Translations under genes and position numbers: made by a program
Source: Acidobacteriota bacterium
Lineage (GTDB): Bacteria; Acidobacteriota; UBA6911; RPQK01; JAJDTT01
Reading direction: 5' to 3'
Length of the DNA stretch: 33,339 nucleotides
NCBI GenBank assembly: GCA_028874215.1
Contig: JAPPLF010000082.1
Span: forward strand, 1-33,339
Notes under the pieces: generated by a model
Told to the model about the DNA's origin: nothing
The model's database searches: none
What the model saw: only the letters and a program-made list of their open reading frames with translations
Shown: one piece after another, positions 19,375 to 30,749 of the stretch
How the letters are laid out: each line of letters opens with the position of its first letter
How positions within the stretch are numbered: the first letter of the stretch is position 1

Positions 19375-21015
19375 CTACGGGTTGCGTTCCACAATCACCT
19401 TGCTCGGAAACCGCTTCAGAAATGCCTTGACCTTCGGGTGCTCCGCAAGGTCCTCTTCCTCATCCTTCCCCGACGGCTCCGCTTCCTGGAACCGGATCTG
19501 AAGCTTACAGGGGGATCCTGTCAACTGTCCCGACAGTTCGGCGAGGTGCTGCGCCTTTTCCTGAACCAAGCCGGCGTGGACCTGCTCGGAGGCGGGGAAG
19601 ACGACGATCAGATCTCCGTCCTGAACCTGGCTGTCGGAGGAGTGCAGCAACGAATTATAGAGTCCCGCTTGATCCTGGACGGCGGCCAGGAGCCGTTCCC
19701 GAAAACCCTGTGCCTGTTGGACAGGCTCGGACCGGGCCGGTTCGGGGGGGGCGGGAGAGGCGGCCGGGGCGGGCGCGGCAGTCGTCTTGGCCGCTGGGGC
19801 CGGTCCGCTTGGAGCGGGTCGGCTCCCGAACAGATCCCGGCTCTCCGGAGGATTTTCGGGTGTCCGTGCGGTTCCTTGGAAACGACCGGATTCGAGTTGT
19901 TCCAGGACGCTCTCCAAGCGGGGAAGTCCGGCCAGCTCGATAAGCTTCATGAAGGCCATTTCCAGGTGAAGGCCCGGATTGGGGTGCCACCGCATCTCTC
20001 CCCCGCACCGGGTGAGCACGTCGAAGAACCGGATCAGATCGGGCGTCGAAAACGCCTCCGCCTGCCGCGTCACCACCTCTTTCTGGCTGTCGGGAAGTTG
20101 GAGCAATCGTTCTTCCCAACCGCTGACCTGAAAGACCATGAGGTTGCGGACATGGGCCAGCATCCGGCCCGCCAGGTTCAACGGATCGACCCCGGACTCG
20201 ACGGCATCCTGCATCCGCTGCAGCAGGGCCTGGGCGTCCCGCTCCTGAATGCAGTCCACGAGTCCGGCCACAAGTTTCTCGTCCACCACGCCCAGCAGTA
20301 CGCGGACGTCCTCGTCGGAGACCTGCTTACCCGAAAGCGAAGTGATCTGCTCCAGAATCGACTGGCCGTCCCGCATGCTCCCCTTGGCGGCCGAGGAGAT
20401 GGCCCTCAGGCCGTAATCGCTGATCTCGATCTCCTCGCTGGCGCAGATCCGTTTCAGGTGCTCCAGAATCAGCACGAAGGGGATCGGTTTGAGGTCGTAT
20501 TCCTGGCAGCGGGAGGTGATGGTGACGGGGATCTTGGCGTGTTCCGTCGTGGCCAGGATGAACTTCACGTGAGGCGGAGGCTCTTCAAGGGTCTTGAGCA
20601 ACGCGTTGAAGGCCGCGTTGGAGAGCATGTGGACCTCATCGATGATGTAGATCTTGAAGCGGTCGCGCGCCGGCGTGTAGCGGGCGCTCTCGCGAAGCTC
20701 CCGGATGTTGTCTACGCCGGTGTTGGAAGCGGCGTCGATCTCCAGGACGTCCAGGCTGTTGGCGGCGGCGATCTCGGTGCAGGAGACGCATCGGGAGCAA
20801 GGCTCCTCGGTCGGCCCCTTCTCGCAGTTCAGGGCCTTGGCCAGAATCCGGGCCGTGGTGGTCTTGCCCACTCCCCGGACGCCCGAAAAGAGGAAGGCAT
20901 GGGCGATGCGTCCGCTGCGGAGGGCGTTCCGCAGAGCCCGGGTGACGGTCTCCTGGCCCGCGACCTCATCGAAGGTCTGAGGGCGCCATTTCCGTGCCAG
21001 AACCACGTAGCTCAT
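19375..21015 (-). CDS. dnaX: DNA polymerase III subunit gamma/tau
   Basis: AAA+ ATPase that forms the clamp loader and links it to the polymerase and helicase. The 546 residues show Walker A GVRGVGKTT (45-53), a zinc site of four cysteines (64, 73, 76, 79), Walker B IIDEVH (124-129), sensor 1 LATTE, and the SRC arginine-finger motif at 168-170. Domain III follows to about 370, then a Pro/Ala-rich linker (about 400-440) and a C-terminal tau-like domain. No A- or T-rich slippery site was noticed, so a separate gamma form from frameshifting is not indicated. It heads the operon; the gap to ybaB is 70 bases. Confidence 0.96.
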   Translation of the reverse strand: MSYVVLARKWRPQTFDEVAGQETVTRALRNALRSGRIAHAFLFSGVRGVGKTTTARILAKALNCEKGPTEEPCSRCVSCTEIAAANSLDVLEIDAASNTGVDNIRELRESARYTPARDRFKIYIIDEVHMLSNAAFNALLKTLEEPPPHVKFILATTEHAKIPVTITSRCQEYDLKPIPFVLILEHLKRICASEEIEISDYGLRAISSAAKGSMRDGQSILEQITSLSGKQVSDEDVRVLLGVVDEKLVAGLVDCIQERDAQALLQRMQDAVESGVDPLNLAGRMLAHVRNLMVFQVSGWEERLLQLPDSQKEVVTRQAEAFSTPDLIRFFDVLTRCGGEMRWHPNPGLHLEMAFMKLIELAGLPRLESVLEQLESGRFQGTARTPENPPESRDLFGSRPAPSGPAPAAKTTAAPAPAASPAPPEPARSEPVQQAQGFRERLLAAVQDQAGLYNSLLHSSDSQVQDGDLIVVFPASEQVHAGLVQEKAQHLAELSGQLTGSPCKLQIRFQEAEPSGKDEEEDLAEHPKVKAFLKRFPSKVIVERNP

Positions 21016-21211: not shown

Positions 21212-21307
21212 GGAGGAGTACCGAAGTGGACGTACCGGGCCCGACTCGAAATCGGGTTGTCCGGTGATGAGCCGGGCACGTGGGTTCGAATCCCACCTCC
21301 TCCGCCA
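21212..21307 (+). tRNA. tRNA-Ser (anticodon CGA)
   Basis: The acceptor stem GGAGGAG/CTCCTCC, an anticodon loop CTCGAAA on the stem CCCGA/TCGGG, a long variable arm and the T-loop GTTCGAATC identify a type II tRNA for serine codon UCG. The discriminator is G and CCA is encoded (21305-21307). The last 15 bases are repeated at 25486-25500. Confidence 0.96.
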
Positions 21308-21358
21308 CGCCTATTACTGATATTTGGCAGATCGAAGAATGGTTTGGGTGCATAAGCT

Positions 21359-24142
21359 GTGTCTTTCGTAACCCTCAAGAGGTTCGCGCTACGACTGCTG
21401 ACCGTAGTGGCCATCGCTATTTTTCCTGCTCTATCTCCGATCCTGGAGAACGCCTCGGCCGCTCCCGGGAGTGACTTGACTCGAGCCGGACGTGCCTATG
21501 AACTCCGACTCGCCCGGGCACACGAACGTATGGAGAACACCATGTACGCATCCACCCCGGATCGTACGGGCGTCGACTCCATGTGTCCTGTATTGAGCGA
21601 CGGCCGGATCGGGACACCGATTTTGCTGGACTTGCGCGGAGCGTTGCTGAAGTCCGACACCAGGAGGTATGCCGTAACGGCAGATGAAACGGAGTCGGAG
21701 GCGGAATCGGCACTGGACTTTTTTCAGAATCACATTTCCGCACCGATCGTGCAGGCGAAGTGCGTCAACTGCCATGTCGAAGGGGGCGTGTCGGGCCACA
21801 CCCGGCTGATTCTCCATCCGTCTTCCAACGCCGACCATGCGACCCTCAACCTGGCCGTTTTCGAGAATTTTCTGGCTGACGTCGAGGACGGCGGCAATCT
21901 GATCCTGAACAAGATCCAAGGGGTGGGCCACGGCGGCGGGATTCAGGTGCCGGCCGGATCGGACGACTTCGCCAACATGGAAACCTTCCTTAGCCTGCTG
22001 GGCTACGGTGGCGATTCCGGTTCCGGCCTGTCCCCGGACACATTGTTCGACACGGTCACGATGGCGTCGCCGGGGAAAACGTTGTGGCGCGCTGCGTTGA
22101 TCTTCGGCGGAACGATCCCGACCCGGGAGGAACGTGAAGCTGTTGAGAACGGCACCGAGGAGGACCTGCGGACGGCGATCCGGAATCGGATGACGGGTCC
22201 GGGATTTCACGAATTCCTGATTCGGGCGAGCAATGATCGGTTGCTCACGGATCGGCACTTGGGCGAGAACGTGATTTGGTATTTGGATCATCGATTCGTC
22301 GATTTGGTGAATCTGCATTGGACGAAGGCCATGGAAGCGCGCGAAAGAGGATTCTATGACAGGTGGTACGATGCAGAATATAAGCGGTGGTGGGAGTCAC
22401 TCCAATACGGCATCGCGCGCGCCCCGCTGGAGTTGATCGCACATGTGGTGGAGAAGGATCTTCCCTACACGGAAGTTCTGACCGCCGACTACATCATGGC
22501 GAATCCGATGGCGTCGGAGGCGTACGGCGCGTCCACGGAATTCAAGGATGTGAATGACTGGCTCGAATTTGCACCATCGGAAATCGTCAGCTATTACCGG
22601 GACGATGGTTCGATGGTTTTTGAAAGCGACCCGGAGATCGGTTCCCGTGTCGTCGATCCCGGAAACCTGATTACCGACTATCCTCACGCAGGGATTCTCA
22701 ATACGACCGTGTTCTTGCTGCGTTACCCCACGACCCCTACGAACCGCAACCGCGCCCGTTCGCGTTGGACGTACTACCACTTTCTGGATGTGGATATCGA
22801 GAAGTCGGCGTCGCGAACGACGGATCCCGTCGCTCTCGCCGATACCAATAACCCCACGATGAACAATTCCGCATGCACGGTGTGCCACACCGTCATGGAT
22901 CCGGTTGCCGGCACGTATCAGAACTACGGGGAAGACGGCCAATACCGAGACGAAAGGGGAGGTCTGGACTCGCTGGACGAATTCTACAAGGAACCTCCGG
23001 ATGGCGGGTACACGCCCTATCGAAAGGGTGACAGTTGGTATCGCGATATGCGTGGACCCGGCTTCAACGGACTGATCGCACCGGACGCGGAAAACAGTGT
23101 GCAATGGTTGGCCGAGCAAATCGTGGCTGACGACCGTTTCGCCGAAGCGACTGTGAAGTTCTGGTGGCCGGCGATCATGGGTGTCGAGGTCACGGTGCCG
23201 CCGGAGGACGAAAACGACAGCGGGTTCGAAGGGATGCTGCTGGCCGCCAACGCCCAATCCGGCGAGGTGGAGCGACTCGCCGAAGCGTTCCGGACGGGTA
23301 TCGAGGGTGGGGACCCTTACAATCTGAAAGATCTTCTCGTGGAGATCGTGCTTTCGCCCTGGTTTCGTGCGGAATCGGTTTCCGACGACGATCCGGTGCG
23401 GACGGTGGCGTTGCAAAACGCCGGCGTCGAGAGGCTGTTGACGCCCGAAGAGTTGGCATGGAAGACTCAAGCCATCACCGGATACAGTTGGGGGCGGCAG
23501 CCCACAAGACGGTGGAACCTCGTTTATGGAAAATCTGTCAATTCGTGGACCGATTCTGAGGGCTACCGTCTGCTTTACGGCGGGATCAACTCGGATGCGG
23601 TCACGGAACGGTCGTACGACTTGACGCCGACGATGGCGGCGGTCGCCCAGAGCCATGCCCTTGAATCCAGTTGTCCCATTGTTCAACGCGAGTTCTTGCT
23701 CTGGCCGGATGAGAACCGGCGTCTATTTGGTGGGATTGACCAGAAAATGTTGCCGAATTCAAACCGCGGCGCCAGAAAAATTCGTGAAAAGCTGGTCGAA
23801 CTGCACGAGAAGCTCCTTGGTGTGACGGTATCGGTCGATTCCCCCGATGTGCAGGCCGCGTTTCAGTTGTTTGTGGAGACGTGGGAACATAGACGTAACA
23901 CGAGGGAACGGCGGAGTGCAATGACTGCCTGTGATATTCGCGATGATTTTTTCTTCGAAGGAATCGCTGACGATGTTCTGCAAACAAACGAGGACGGAGA
24001 GTTGGAATACGATGGGGAACGCGCGCACGAAATATTGGACGATGCTGACTTGTGGGACCGAGGCCGGCGAGATCCTATAATCCAGACGTGGGTCGTCGTG
24101 CTTGCGTATTTGATGACGGATTACCGGTACCTCTTTTTCTAG
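21359..24142 (+). CDS. exported protein with two CxxCH motifs, partner of a DUF1501-type protein
   Basis: The GTG start at 21359 gives 927 residues with a plausible signal peptide (hydrophobic LLTVVAIAIFPAL, cleavage near ASAA at 32-35). The next in-frame ATG would lose it. There are two heme-c-like sites: CVNCH at 135-139 inside a stretch resembling planctomycete cytochrome modules, and CTVCH at 506-510 followed by MDP, as in the DUF1588/DUF1592 region of large Planctomycete and Myxococcus cytochrome-like proteins. The middle and end carry long acidic segments with many Trp and Tyr. I cannot assign a reaction. It starts 52 bases after the tRNA-Ser gene and ends 9 bases before the DUF1501-type gene, so the two form an operon in the cassette. 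Confidence 0.7.
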   Translation: MSFVTLKRFALRLLTVVAIAIFPALSPILENASAAPGSDLTRAGRAYELRLARAHERMENTMYASTPDRTGVDSMCPVLSDGRIGTPILLDLRGALLKSDTRRYAVTADETESEAESALDFFQNHISAPIVQAKCVNCHVEGGVSGHTRLILHPSSNADHATLNLAVFENFLADVEDGGNLILNKIQGVGHGGGIQVPAGSDDFANMETFLSLLGYGGDSGSGLSPDTLFDTVTMASPGKTLWRAALIFGGTIPTREEREAVENGTEEDLRTAIRNRMTGPGFHEFLIRASNDRLLTDRHLGENVIWYLDHRFVDLVNLHWTKAMEARERGFYDRWYDAEYKRWWESLQYGIARAPLELIAHVVEKDLPYTEVLTADYIMANPMASEAYGASTEFKDVNDWLEFAPSEIVSYYRDDGSMVFESDPEIGSRVVDPGNLITDYPHAGILNTTVFLLRYPTTPTNRNRARSRWTYYHFLDVDIEKSASRTTDPVALADTNNPTMNNSACTVCHTVMDPVAGTYQNYGEDGQYRDERGGLDSLDEFYKEPPDGGYTPYRKGDSWYRDMRGPGFNGLIAPDAENSVQWLAEQIVADDRFAEATVKFWWPAIMGVEVTVPPEDENDSGFEGMLLAANAQSGEVERLAEAFRTGIEGGDPYNLKDLLVEIVLSPWFRAESVSDDDPVRTVALQNAGVERLLTPEELAWKTQAITGYSWGRQPTRRWNLVYGKSVNSWTDSEGYRLLYGGINSDAVTERSYDLTPTMAAVAQSHALESSCPIVQREFLLWPDENRRLFGGIDQKMLPNSNRGARKIREKLVELHEKLLGVTVSVDSPDVQAAFQLFVETWEHRRNTRERRSAMTACDIRDDFFFEGIADDVLQTNEDGELEYDGERAHEILDDADLWDRGRRDPIIQTWVVVLAYLMTDYRYLFF

Positions 24143-24151
24143 GGGGGTGAA

Positions 24152-25453
24152 GTGAAGCGGCGGACCTTTTTCAGAAGTCTGTTGGCCCCGGCGGTCGGTG
24201 CAGCGTCGGGATTTCACCTGCCACTGGCGAACGCGGCCGACTACGACGGCAAGCTGTTCATCTTCGTGCAGGCGAAGGGGGGTTGGGACCCGACGAGTTT
24301 CTGCGATCCGAAGACCAATACGCCCGGCGAGAAGGTCATCAACCACTGGGCCGAGAACGGAGAGACTCAGCAGGCGGGCAATCTCTTCTACGCGGACTTC
24401 GCCAACAACACGGCGTTTTTCGAAAAGTACTACGACCGGATGTTGGTCATCAACGGGGTCGACGCACAGACGAATTCTCACACGACGGGGGTCATCCATA
24501 ACTGGAGTGGCCGGGTGTCTGAAGGGTATCCCAGCATGACCGCGTTGCTCGCGGCCCAATATGGACCGGAGTTGTCGCTTGCCTACCTCACTTTTGGGGG
24601 GTTTTCCGATCCGGCCGGGTTGATAACGTACACCCGCATGGATCGTCCGGAACTGATTAGCAATGTTGCGGTCCCGAATCGCCCTCGGTGGTCGGATTCG
24701 GGCCGGTTTCTTCACTCGGCAGACTGGGAACGGTTCCAGACATTTCGGGCGGCGAATATCGCTCGGTTGGCCGGGGATCCCCATCTGTTGCCCAGAGCAG
24801 CCCGCAACCGCGGGCTTTATGCAAGGGCGCTCTCATCGGAAGCGACCGAGGGGTTGAGAGCGTATGCTTCCCTCATTCCACCGCGCGATGAATTGGATCA
24901 ACTGGAAGGGTTCCAAGGCGAATTCAACAGCATCGAGAACCAATTGCGGCGTCAAGCGCTGTTTACGATCCTTGCGTTCAAGGCGAAGGTAGCCGTCAGT
25001 GCCGATTTGTTAAAGGGTGGTTTCGACACGCACTTCAATCACGATCTGCAGTACACCAGCCTGTTGGGAAACTTGACCGATTCCGTGGACTTTCTGTGGG
25101 ATTTCGCAGAGACGCATGAAGTCGCCGACCGGCTGGTCGTGGTGATGGGATCGGATTTCGGCCGCACCAACCACTACAATGTGGATAACGGAAAGGATCA
25201 CTGGCCTATCGGCAGCTTCATCGTGATGGAAAAGAATCAGACCTGGACCAACCAAGTGGTCGGCGAAACCGACGCACTGCACTTTGCTCACAAGATCCAT
25301 CCGGAAACACTGCAGCGCGACGACGCCAACGGAACCATCATCCACCCGAAACACGTTCACAAAGCGTTGCGCCGATATTTTCGAATCGAGGACTCGCTGG
25401 GAGCTCAGAAATTCCCCTTCCGCAACACCGAGGACTTCGCGTTCTTCGAATAA
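24152..25453 (+). CDS. Tat-exported DUF1501 (alkaline-phosphatase-superfamily-like) protein
   Basis: GTG start with GGGGGG upstream; 433 residues. The N-terminus MKRRTFFRSLL followed by a hydrophobic stretch and ANA-A is a twin-arginine signal. The mature part has FVQAKGGWDPT, INGVDAQTNSH, GGFDTHFNHD and VVVMGSDFGRTNHYN, followed by KDHWPIGSF. These are characteristic DUF1501 landmarks, with His/Asp residues placed as metal ligands in the alkaline phosphatase/sulfatase superfamily. The function of DUF1501 proteins is not established, and no formylglycine-type Cys/Ser site is seen. Export by Tat suggests that a folded protein, possibly with bound metal, is transported. It is co-transcribed with the di-CxxCH protein, a pairing known from Planctomycetes and relatives. 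Confidence 0.78.
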   Translation: MKRRTFFRSLLAPAVGAASGFHLPLANAADYDGKLFIFVQAKGGWDPTSFCDPKTNTPGEKVINHWAENGETQQAGNLFYADFANNTAFFEKYYDRMLVINGVDAQTNSHTTGVIHNWSGRVSEGYPSMTALLAAQYGPELSLAYLTFGGFSDPAGLITYTRMDRPELISNVAVPNRPRWSDSGRFLHSADWERFQTFRAANIARLAGDPHLLPRAARNRGLYARALSSEATEGLRAYASLIPPRDELDQLEGFQGEFNSIENQLRRQALFTILAFKAKVAVSADLLKGGFDTHFNHDLQYTSLLGNLTDSVDFLWDFAETHEVADRLVVVMGSDFGRTNHYNVDNGKDHWPIGSFIVMEKNQTWTNQVVGETDALHFAHKIHPETLQRDDANGTIIHPKHVHKALRRYFRIEDSLGAQKFPFRNTEDFAFFE

Positions 25454-25485
25454 GTCACCAGGGAAAGGTGCTTGGTGGGACGGAA

Positions 25486-25500
25486 CCATCTCCTCCGCCA
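25486..25500 (+). other. attR-like copy of the tRNA-Ser(CGA) 3' end
   Basis: CCATCTCCTCCGCCA matches the tRNA 3' end at 14 of 15 bases. It begins 33 bases after the stop of the DUF1501-type gene, in otherwise featureless sequence. Confidence 0.5.
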
Positions 25501-25620
25501 GATCTTTACCGCACTTGTCGTCTCAAGCGCGCTCTGAAGGCGATAATTCTGCACGATCATCGCGCCCTCTGGGTGAGGAATAGGGATTAGAGTCCCGGTG
25601 TATCAGTGTCGGTAAGAATC

Positions 25621-26337
25621 ATGCTGTCGAACTACGATGAGTTCGCCGCGGTCTACAACAGGCACTGGGGCGGGGACTCCCTGAACTGGTTCCCGGAAGT
25701 GGACCGGCTGGTTCTGGACCATCTCCATCCCCACAGCAACGTTCTTGATGTTTGCTGCGGGACCGGACAGGTCGCAGAGAAACTGACTCGACAGGGTTTC
25801 AGGACGGTTGGTGTCGATGCGTCGTTGGGGATGCTCCGCCATGCGGCCGTCAATGCGCCCGGGTGTCGGTTCGTCTGCGCGGACGTCCGGCGCTTCGGTC
25901 TGTCTCGCAAGTTTGATGCCGCTATTTCCCTTTTCGACAGCCTCAATCATCTGCTGACTCTGGAAGATTTCGAGTCGGCTCTTCTCAACGTGGCAAGGTG
26001 CCTCGCTTCAGGAGGCGTGTTTGCCTTCGATCTCAACACGGAGATCAAGTATCTGACGTCTTGGTCGGGCACGTGGACAGTCGATGATCCGGGGACGACC
26101 ATGGAGGTCACGACCACTTATCGCGAGGACACTCGCTTGGCGGAGTTCCACGCGACGATTCCATCCCGGGACAGGGGCCGTCCCGTCGAGGTTCGGCTTT
26201 TCCAGACATGGTATTCCGTCTCCACGGTCGTCCAGGCGCTCGAACGCAGCCGCTTTACGGACATCTCCTGTATTGCCCTTGGCCGCAATCGCCGGGTCGA
26301 AGAAACGAACCGTGTGCTCTTCGTCGCCCGGAAGTGA
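25621..26337 (+). CDS. class I SAM-dependent methyltransferase
   Basis: The ATG at 25621 gives 238 residues; a GTG at 25606 would add five and has no better ribosome site. The Rossmann fold opens with VLDVCCGTGQ (motif I, about 41-50), the acidic end of strand 2 is GVDAS, and a FDSLNHL segment follows strand 4. The C-terminal part, about 150-238, has a beta-rich insert with WYSVSTVVQALE, as seen in small-molecule methyltransferases. The substrate is unknown. It lies just outside the tRNA-Ser(CGA) cassette and shares no operon with its neighbours. Confidence 0.85.
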   Translation: MLSNYDEFAAVYNRHWGGDSLNWFPEVDRLVLDHLHPHSNVLDVCCGTGQVAEKLTRQGFRTVGVDASLGMLRHAAVNAPGCRFVCADVRRFGLSRKFDAAISLFDSLNHLLTLEDFESALLNVARCLASGGVFAFDLNTEIKYLTSWSGTWTVDDPGTTMEVTTTYREDTRLAEFHATIPSRDRGRPVEVRLFQTWYSVSTVVQALERSRFTDISCIALGRNRRVEETNRVLFVARK

Positions 26338-28763: not shown

Positions 28764-28853
<90 letters not shown>

Positions 28854-28859
28854 TTTCTT

Positions 28860-28899
28860 CATCCAAAGACATCCAAAACAGTCCAATATAGTCCATATA
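28860..28899 (+). repeat. four 10-bp direct repeats next to the tRNA-Ser(GGA) end
   Basis: The units CATCCAAAGA, CATCCAAAAC, AGTCCAATAT and AGTCCATATA follow each other without gaps. Consensus is (C/A)(A/G)TCCAAANN. The 10-base step puts the TCC on one face of DNA. They begin six bases after the tRNA, where integrase core sites of tRNA-targeted elements would lie. Confidence 0.6.
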
Positions 28900-28948
28900 A
28901 TGAGTTACTTACGCTGATTTCTTGTCCAGATCCGTCCGATAATATCTC

Positions 28949-28987
28949 TTGACATCCGGGGGCATCTGGGGGCAATAATTGGGGGCA
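28949..28987 (+). promoter_or_regulatory. GGGGGCA triplet and possible integrase promoter
   Basis: The heptamer GGGGGCA occurs at 28958-28964, 28968-28974 and 28981-28987. A TTGACA box (28949-28954) and an AATAAT (28974-28979) 19 bases apart could be the integrase promoter. The repeats fall within it and could be arm-type integrase sites that also make the gene self-regulated. Confidence 0.45.
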
Positions 28988-29018
28988 GGTTAAATTACAC
29001 CAAAAGGAGTTGCCCCAT

Positions 29019-30242
29019 ATGCCTCTCACCGACATTGCTATTCGTCACGCTAGACCCCCCGAAAAGGCCAGAAAACTGTTCGACGGAGGTGGCCTGTATT
29101 TGGAATTATCCCCCCGCGGCAACAAGTGGTGGCGGCTGAAGTACCGCTTCGCCGGCAAGGAGAAACGCATCTCTCTGGGCGTCTATCCTGCAGTGTCTCT
29201 GAAGGAGGCGCGGCGACGGCGCGCTCAGGCCCGCGAACTCTTGGCCCGAGAAATCGATCCCAGCGAGCACCGCAAGGCGCAAGAAGCCGCGAAGAAGCAG
29301 CAGTCGGCGAACAGTTTCGAAGCTGTGGCTCGGGAATGGTTCACCAAGCACACTCCCAACTGGGCGGTCAGTCATGCTAACCGGGTCCTGGGCCAACTGA
29401 AGCGAGATATCTTCCCGTGGATGGGTCGCCAGCCGATTGTCGGCATTACCGCCCCTGAGTTGTTGGCCGTTGTTCGTCGGATCGAGCAAAGGGGAGCTCT
29501 GGAAAGTGCCCACCGGGCGCTTCGGATCTGTGGCCAGGTGTTTCGCTATGCGGTGGCCACCGGAAAGGCGAAGCGTGACCCGTCCGGTGACTTGCGGGGC
29601 GCGTTGCCGCCGGTTAAGAGAACCCACTTCGCCGCCCTTACGGAACCGAAGCAGGTCGGCCCCTTGCTGCGAGTCCTGGACGGCTACCAAGGGACGCTGA
29701 TCGTGCGTTGCGCCCTGCGCATCGCTCCCTTGGTCTTCGTGCGGCCCGGGGAGCTACGCCACGCCCAGTGGTCGGATATCGACCTGGAGGCCGCTGAGTG
29801 GCGTTACACCGTCAGCAAGACCGACATCCCGCACATCGTTCCCCTTTCTCGACAAGCGGTCGAGATTCTCCAGGCGCTACATCCTGTGACGGGCCATGGA
29901 CGTTATGTGTTCCCAAGTGCTCGCACTCCCAACGGAGCCCGGCCAATGAGCGAGAATGCCATTCTGGCCGCCCTGCGGCGTATGGGTATCGGCAAGGAGG
30001 AGATGACGGGCCACGGGTTTCGGGCGATGGCGAGAACGATCCTGGATGAAGTATTGGGATTCCGTCCCGATTTTATCGAGCATCAATTGGCCCACGCGGT
30101 GCGGGACCCCAACGGCCGGGCCTACAATCGCACGGCCTATCTCCCGGAACGGCGAAAGATGATGCAGGAGTGGGCCGACTACCTCGATCAACTGAAGGCT
30201 GATGTCGTTCCGATGCATCCAAAGCGACTGGATCAAAACTGA
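29019..30242 (+). CDS. P4-type tyrosine integrase (DUF4102 N-terminal domain)
   Basis: The ATG at 29019 has AAAAGGAG nine bases upstream; an alternative TTG at 29010 is less likely. The 407 residues open with the DUF4102 arm-binding domain (LTDIAIRHARPPEKA, then FDGGGLYLEL and WWRLKYRFAGKEKRISLGVYP), followed by a core-binding domain (about 98-195) and the catalytic domain. The active residues are Arg 242 (RPGELR), Lys 267, His 332 and Arg 335 (GHGFRAMART), His 359 (QLAH) and nucleophile Tyr 369 (AYNRTAY). Such enzymes insert islands into the 3' end of tRNA genes, here most likely the adjacent tRNA-Ser(GGA). All catalytic residues are intact, so it may be active. Confidence 0.93.
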   Translation: MPLTDIAIRHARPPEKARKLFDGGGLYLELSPRGNKWWRLKYRFAGKEKRISLGVYPAVSLKEARRRRAQARELLAREIDPSEHRKAQEAAKKQQSANSFEAVAREWFTKHTPNWAVSHANRVLGQLKRDIFPWMGRQPIVGITAPELLAVVRRIEQRGALESAHRALRICGQVFRYAVATGKAKRDPSGDLRGALPPVKRTHFAALTEPKQVGPLLRVLDGYQGTLIVRCALRIAPLVFVRPGELRHAQWSDIDLEAAEWRYTVSKTDIPHIVPLSRQAVEILQALHPVTGHGRYVFPSARTPNGARPMSENAILAALRRMGIGKEEMTGHGFRAMARTILDEVLGFRPDFIEHQLAHAVRDPNGRAYNRTAYLPERRKMMQEWADYLDQLKADVVPMHPKRLDQN

Positions 30243-30662
30243 GGAATCCACCTGAGCGGTGGTCTCTAATGCCAGCTTGTTTCCCGTCGAATAAACCGGT
30301 AACGGTTCCTTCCTTTCCATTAGAGAAGCGGTTGATGCTTCGGAAACCGGTTTTGAGGGACCCCTCATTCCCTGCAATCTCTTTGCTGGCCAAGCTCCAC
30401 AGCACACTCTGTAGTCCCTTCCTACGGCGCCGCAATCGCCCTTTCCCGCCAGTTCGTTCAACACGCTGGTGATGGTCTCGTTTTCGCCTTCGGCGGAGTA
30501 AGTAGTCGGAGCGGGGAACCTGTTCAAAACCTGAAGCGGGAAGAAATCCGGACCTCACCTACCGCCGCGAGGTCCCACCCAAGACATCCAGAGATCGCCT
30601 GAAAGGGAAGGGAACCGGCTTTCAATCTCCTGGGCGGCCTGTGGCGAGCGGCTTTCAAAGAG
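30243..30662. other. gene-free region after the integrase
   Basis: No convincing protein or RNA gene is visible. A weak hairpin CCACC/GGTGG lies at 30248-30262, just after the integrase stop. AAGACATCCA at 30581-30590 repeats 28866-28875 near the tRNA-Ser(GGA) end and could be a chance match or a partial core site. Confidence 0.5.
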
Positions 30663-30749
30663 TGCCCGGGGTGGGAGTCGAACCCACATGGAGGCAGTAC
30701 CTCCACAGGATTTTAAGTCCTGCGCGTCTGCCGGTTTCGCCACCCGGGC
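30663..30749 (-). tRNA. tRNA-Leu (anticodon TAA)
   Basis: On the minus strand GCCCGGG pairs with CCCGGGC as acceptor stem. The anticodon loop CTTAAAA on the stem CAGGA/TCCTG gives anticodon TAA, and there is a long variable arm and GTTCGACTC. The discriminator is A, and no CCA is encoded (the next bases are CT), unlike both serine tRNAs here. Confidence 0.93.

Follow-up and report, generated by a model that had tools for sequence, protein, structure and literature searches.

We describe a two-gene operon that sits in a tRNA-Ser(CGA) gene site of an uncultured acidobacterial genus, bounded by the intact tRNA gene at one end and by a displaced tRNA 3′ half at the other. The insertion is real, and the kind of element is already known. 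It is old, lies in a tRNA gene and carries no integrase. Our best reading, to which we give a probability of about 0.6, is that it is a stripped CIME-like remnant; it looks like a fixed old remnant rather than an active traveller. The window, by which we mean the whole stretch of DNA analysed (33,339 nucleotides), is an entire contig (C82) of one genome (G000; 113 contigs, 5.7 Mb), which we compared with three other genomes of the genus (G001, G002 and G003), two of which match public Acidobacteriota MAGs. The features of the locus are as follows.

19375–21015 (−): dnaX (DNA polymerase III gamma/tau), the conserved left neighbour of tRNA-Ser(CGA) (Pfam/NCBIfam)
21212–21307 (+): tRNA-Ser(CGA), the integration target (ARAGORN, Rfam RF00005)
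21308–21358 (+): left inner end of the insert, 51 nt (alignment and motif count)
21359–24142 (+): gene 1, PSCyt3/DUF1588 (Pfam)
24152–25453 (+): gene 2, DUF1501 (Pfam)
25454–25500 (+): decayed, displaced 3′ half of tRNA-Ser(CGA), the right attachment remnant, best kept at 25486–25500
25501–25605 (+): right flank, beyond the insert; its homologue in G001 follows tRNA-Ser(CGA) directly

A preliminary description of this DNA had reported that the 3′ end of tRNA-Ser(CGA) recurs downstream, in the geometry of a site-specific insertion. The search of the window confirms the repeat: the terminal 15-mer of the tRNA, CCACCTCCTCCGCCA, has one further match at ≤1 mismatch, at 25486–25500 on the plus strand (14/15; 0.02 matches expected by shuffling, and 0 of 100 shuffles gave two). 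Taken alone, the 15-mer is only moderately significant, because 14/15 words are common genome-wide (14 places for the 15-mer versus 18 for a reversed control). Aligned with the tRNA 3′ half, the G000 sequence that follows the DUF1501 stop codon scores 31, a value reached by 1 of 2,000 shuffles. In G002 the site is also filled; the operon is present and its far end carries, at the same place, a 58-nt, 90%-identical copy of tRNA positions 38–95 (C25:117131–117188; score 92 versus a shuffled mean of 17.6, reached by 0 of 2,000 shuffles). This copy starts at the DUF1501 stop codon and continues into the same flank as in G001. G001 itself has the empty site that the preliminary description had proposed to look for: a 100% identical tRNA-Ser(CGA) (C120:2953–3048) leads straight into a homologue of the part of the window that lies right of the repeat, as seen by alignment of 25501–25605 and by blastn from 25620 onward. 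The G003 contig ends inside the tRNA, at nucleotide 92, so its site state is unreadable, which leaves three informative genomes of the four in the genus; G003 also yielded no operon.

Outside the genus, 12 loci of the order served as outgroups, and dnaX adjoins tRNA-Ser(CGA) at 11 of them. tRNA-Ser(GGA) follows tRNA-Ser(CGA) after 6–88 nt in six outgroups, with no operon between them, and in a seventh the start of tRNA-Ser(GGA) is visible before a run of N. As the outgroups have the two tRNA genes in succession without the operon, the operon-free state is ancestral. Within the genus, the two tRNA-Ser genes are also separated by a methyltransferase–BNR–amidohydrolase block; a search of the 14 other genomes of the order with its BNR gene gave no match at E ≤ 1e-40. 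Together, the cassette and this genus-specific block indicate that the interval grew more than once. The block was considered as an earlier island of the same kind and rejected, as a displaced CGA fragment before tRNA-Ser(GGA) does not rise above shuffled sequences (best case reached by 194 of 2,000). The methyltransferase gene (25606–26334), which lies beside the decayed repeat, has a dS of about 0.73–0.75 to G001 as well as to G002; these values, far higher than those of the genes around it, suggest that it was locally replaced in G000.

The comparison with G002 refines the boundaries of the insert, which extends from the anticodon loop (~21249) to ~25453, with 25454–25500 being the displaced, decayed tRNA 3′ half. 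Because the displaced copy in G002 starts at tRNA position 38, we place the putative crossover in the anticodon loop, at about 21246–21252. The insert is ~4.2 kb long and its only genes are the open reading frames 21359–24142 and 24152–25453, in keeping with the earlier view of an interval filled by a single two-gene operon. That view also holds for the lack of an integrase: open reading frames and Pfam searches revealed only the PSCyt3 and DUF1501 genes, and no integrase, recombinase or integrase remnant, between tRNA-Ser(CGA) and the repeat. The gene pair is tightly bounded, with 51 nt on the left and 0 nt to the right of the stop codon. In G002 the left inner end is about 45 nt longer and contains TTGAC/GTCAA four times; no sigma-70-like promoter was found in the left inner end of the window copy (21308–21358).

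We compared the two filled sites with each other and with their surroundings. In the protein tree, the copies at the tRNA site in G000 and G002 form a sister pair (92/92, moderate support), and the copy at G001:C3 branches next. The dS between the two tRNA-site copies (0.30 for gene 1 and 0.22 for gene 2) resembles that of most neighbouring genes (0.24–0.42 for ompA, recR, dnaX, BNR and amidohydrolase), which fits vertical descent from the ancestor that G000 and G002 share and gives no support to a recent transfer of the operon. The dN/dS values of the two genes (0.32 and 0.42) indicate constraint on both proteins. Base composition, a further check raised in the preliminary description, is not diagnostic of recent arrival: GC3 is indeed lower in the insert (0.69–0.72) than in dnaX and recR (0.80–0.84), but it is nearly as low (0.72–0.74) in a G000 paralogue on contig C48 that is distant from any tRNA, so that low GC3 reflects the gene family and not the insertion. 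Recombination has also acted at the locus, because relationships differ on its two sides (in the upstream block G001 falls with G000 and G003; in the downstream block it is no closer to G000 than G002 is). The gain and loss history of G001 is therefore not certain, and this genome may carry a never-filled allele.

The product of gene 1 (927 amino acids) is a predicted exported di-haem protein with CxxCH motifs at residues 135–139 and 506–510, all of which are invariant across the alignment of its homologues; its PSCyt3 match barely exceeds the Pfam cut-off (27.3 bits versus 27). Gene 2 encodes a DUF1501 protein of 433 amino acids (65.4 bits versus a cut-off of 27) with a Tat-like N terminus, KRRTFFRSLL, of which R3 and R4 are invariant in the corresponding alignment. 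A CxxCH-containing PSCyt3 domain thus adjoins DUF1501, as in PSCyt/DUF1501 gene pairs, and the N-terminal sequences of both proteins predict export. Their job is probably the periplasmic redox or hydrolytic processing of a substrate such as carbohydrate; PSCyt proteins have been tied to carbohydrate metabolism through their carbohydrate-binding domains (PMC5615132), and one gene 1 homologue carries CBM60. The papers found contain no established function for the gene pair and none names both DUF1501 and DUF1588, and no relatives with a solved structure were found. A structure prediction for gene 2 reached a pLDDT of 49.8 and was left unused.

Further copies of the operon occur in G000 (one) and in G001 (six), and most have extra sequence inside gene 1. 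The operon is thus amplified in G001 (loci L073, on contig C244, L071 and L081), with at least two copies in tandem, at L073. We found no tRNA gene beside any of the seven other copies on the contig stretches examined, which are short, and therefore rejected these tandem and dispersed copies as further tRNA insertions. Close relatives outside the genus were found only in Gammaproteobacteria MAGs, one of which shares the bin series jk18x1bz with G001; the jk18 prefix also appears in a study of the sponge (Ircinia) microbiome (PMC9531527), which suggests, without proving, a sponge habitat. The genus also contains several dispersed sequences. A segment of ~157 nt upstream of the operon at G001:C3 recurs elsewhere in the genus. 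A repeat of ~84 nt (L150:285–533, on G000:C101) is found at over 40 other places, often in tandem and with REP-like palindromes (GGCGGTTAGGAAACCGCC); it folds better than 199 of 200 shuffles and has no credible Rfam match. A sequence of ~360 nt (L071:5371–5729; query 344–702) is dispersed in all four genomes and is possibly a non-autonomous mobile element.

In the history that we propose, the ~4.2-kb two-gene insert would have entered tRNA-Ser(CGA) once, before the G000 and G002 lineages split, through recombination of the tyrosine-integrase type within the anticodon loop. The insert would have brought a tRNA 3′ half of its own and so restored the tRNA, and the original half would have been pushed to the far end, where it is now in decay. 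Because the duplicated part starts in the anticodon loop, an anticodon-centred class of recombinase is indicated. We infer that the integrase gene most likely belonged to the element itself, which would have been larger at first, and that a deletion removed it; given that the displaced half begins right at the DUF1501 stop codon in G000 as in G002, there is no room for deleted genes on the right, and the loss would have occurred on the left or inside. What is left would be an att-flanked, integrase-less, CIME-like remnant that has been vertically inherited and may have been retained because, on the dN/dS values, purifying selection acts on both of its proteins. Several points speak against a stripped island: the lack of an integrase remnant, the position of the displaced half directly at the DUF1501 stop codon, the recombination at the locus and the small number of informative genomes, three of the four in the genus. 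The preliminary description had offered two origins, a satellite moved by another enzyme or an old, stripped island; the latter fits better and the former less, because dS is like that of the neighbours, the repeat has decayed in G000, no other tRNA-associated copy was found and the resident integrase uses another part of the tRNA.

That resident integrase (29019–30239, P4-type) is the only one found in the window and lies beside tRNA-Ser(GGA), at which a separate integrase-bearing island (28764–30239) starts, with TCCAA arm-like repeats after the tRNA. The far end of this island, located through a flank conserved in G003, is at approximately G000:C72:8821–8838 (TTCCCGCCCTCTCCGCCA) and contains only the last ~18 bp of the tRNA; in G001–G003, tRNA-Ser(GGA) is followed by tRNA-Lys(TTT) instead of the integrase island. 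In the cassette, about 58 nt are duplicated from the anticodon loop onward and there are no TCCAA repeats at the left end, which sets it apart from the resident P4-type family. As that family uses an ~18-bp site at the 3′ end, it is not a natural candidate for the cassette, and we rejected the resident integrase as the mover in the simple case. A tRNA-Leu(TAA) gene (30662–30749, minus strand) lies just behind the integrase of the window, and a 96.6% identical twin (L103:1270–1357) lies behind a related integrase that has an in-frame stop and sits at an apparent tmRNA 3′ end in G000:C86; with twins behind both integrases, this tRNA seems to be island cargo. Another related integrase, 79% identical over the part present, is behind tRNA-Ser(GCT) in G001 (L100, on contig C187). 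Integrases at tRNA-Ser(GGA), tRNA-Ser(GCT) and the apparent tmRNA indicate that one family appears to use several tRNA and tmRNA targets in the genus.

Movement in trans is an unlikely origin for the insert. The gene pair and a tRNA 3′ half would have formed a circle, and another locus would have supplied the integrase that inserted it and may excise it, as happens with satellites and mobilisable elements. The boundaries do hug the gene pair, G000 has many P4-type integrase genes and fragments (17 matches), and the four TTGAC/GTCAA words at the left end in G002 could be arm sites. However, the nearest resident integrase recombines in the last ~18 bp of tRNA-Ser(GGA) and not in an anticodon loop, 0 of 7 other operon copies in G000 and G001 have a tRNA gene on the stretches examined, neither the operon nor the tRNA half was found in viral contigs, and dS is like that of the neighbours. 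The strictest version, a minimal two-gene metabolic cassette bounded exactly by the tRNA 3′ half and the last stop codon and moved solely in trans by the anticodon-loop integrase of another element, is very doubtful. We regard it as quite improbable that illegitimate recombination placed a resident operon copy beside the tRNA through microhomology and duplicated the tRNA 3′ half without the help of an integrase. Operon paralogues are present elsewhere in the genus and in tandem in G001, the word CGAA is common to the anticodon loop and the end of gene 2, and there are 3 extra nucleotides at the stop codon; but the duplicated block begins in the anticodon loop, extends past the tRNA 3′ end and passes into the original flank, the pattern left by an integrase, the tRNA was restored perfectly, and the closest paralogue, G001:C3, is by no means a recent copy, with a dS of about 0.55. 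A chance origin of the repeat, with the 15-mer as a random word beside an operon that was always there, is hardly credible despite the frequency of 14/15 words genome-wide, and we reject it because it is contradicted by the empty site in G001, the 58-nt copy in G002 and the adjacency of the two tRNA-Ser genes in outgroups.

At one tRNA-Ser site in this genus, then, a cargo operon was gained and was kept after any recombination machinery had gone, and empty, filled and outgroup states are all documented for the site. This provides a defined locus at which the movement of integrase-less cargo in trans could be tested.

Islands of tyrosine integrases in tRNA genes have been mapped by an intact tRNA and a same-orientation displaced 3′ fragment downstream, and anticodon-centred sites are one of two classes recognized by Islander (2,083 of 3,919; PMC4383910). 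The cassette resembles such ‘A’ class islands in its intact tRNA end, its displaced 3′ fragment that reaches the tRNA end in the same orientation, its length within 2–200 kb and, as for tDNA islands in general, the empty sites in relatives (G001:C120 and outgroups). It differs in having no integrase inside or overlapping it, in comprising only about 4.2 kb and two genes and in the decay of the fragment in the window; scans that require an integrase, such as Islander, would reject it. A CIME (PMC5704250) similarly has att-like repeats flanking cargo without recombination or transfer genes; here, attL and attR are both kept, attR being clear in G002 and degenerate in G000. The site region also has further insertions, as in that case (the block between the tRNA-Ser genes and the integrase island at tRNA-Ser(GGA)), whereas no parent ICE or IME of the cassette was found. 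The ssrA-specific vcrABC islands of Dehalococcoides (PMC3146451) are likewise specific to a tDNA and have a small metabolic operon as their cargo, but, as described, they keep an integration module (the serine recombinase DsiB) and target ssrA. Finally, as in planctomycete-type pairs of PSCyt3/DUF1588 and DUF1501 (compare PMC5615132), a PSCyt3-domain gene adjoins a gene of an uncharacterised family, and some gene 1 homologues carry CBM60; in contrast to those pairs, the genes described here are from Acidobacteriota, the only other close relatives found were in Gammaproteobacteria MAGs, and one copy lies in a tRNA gene.
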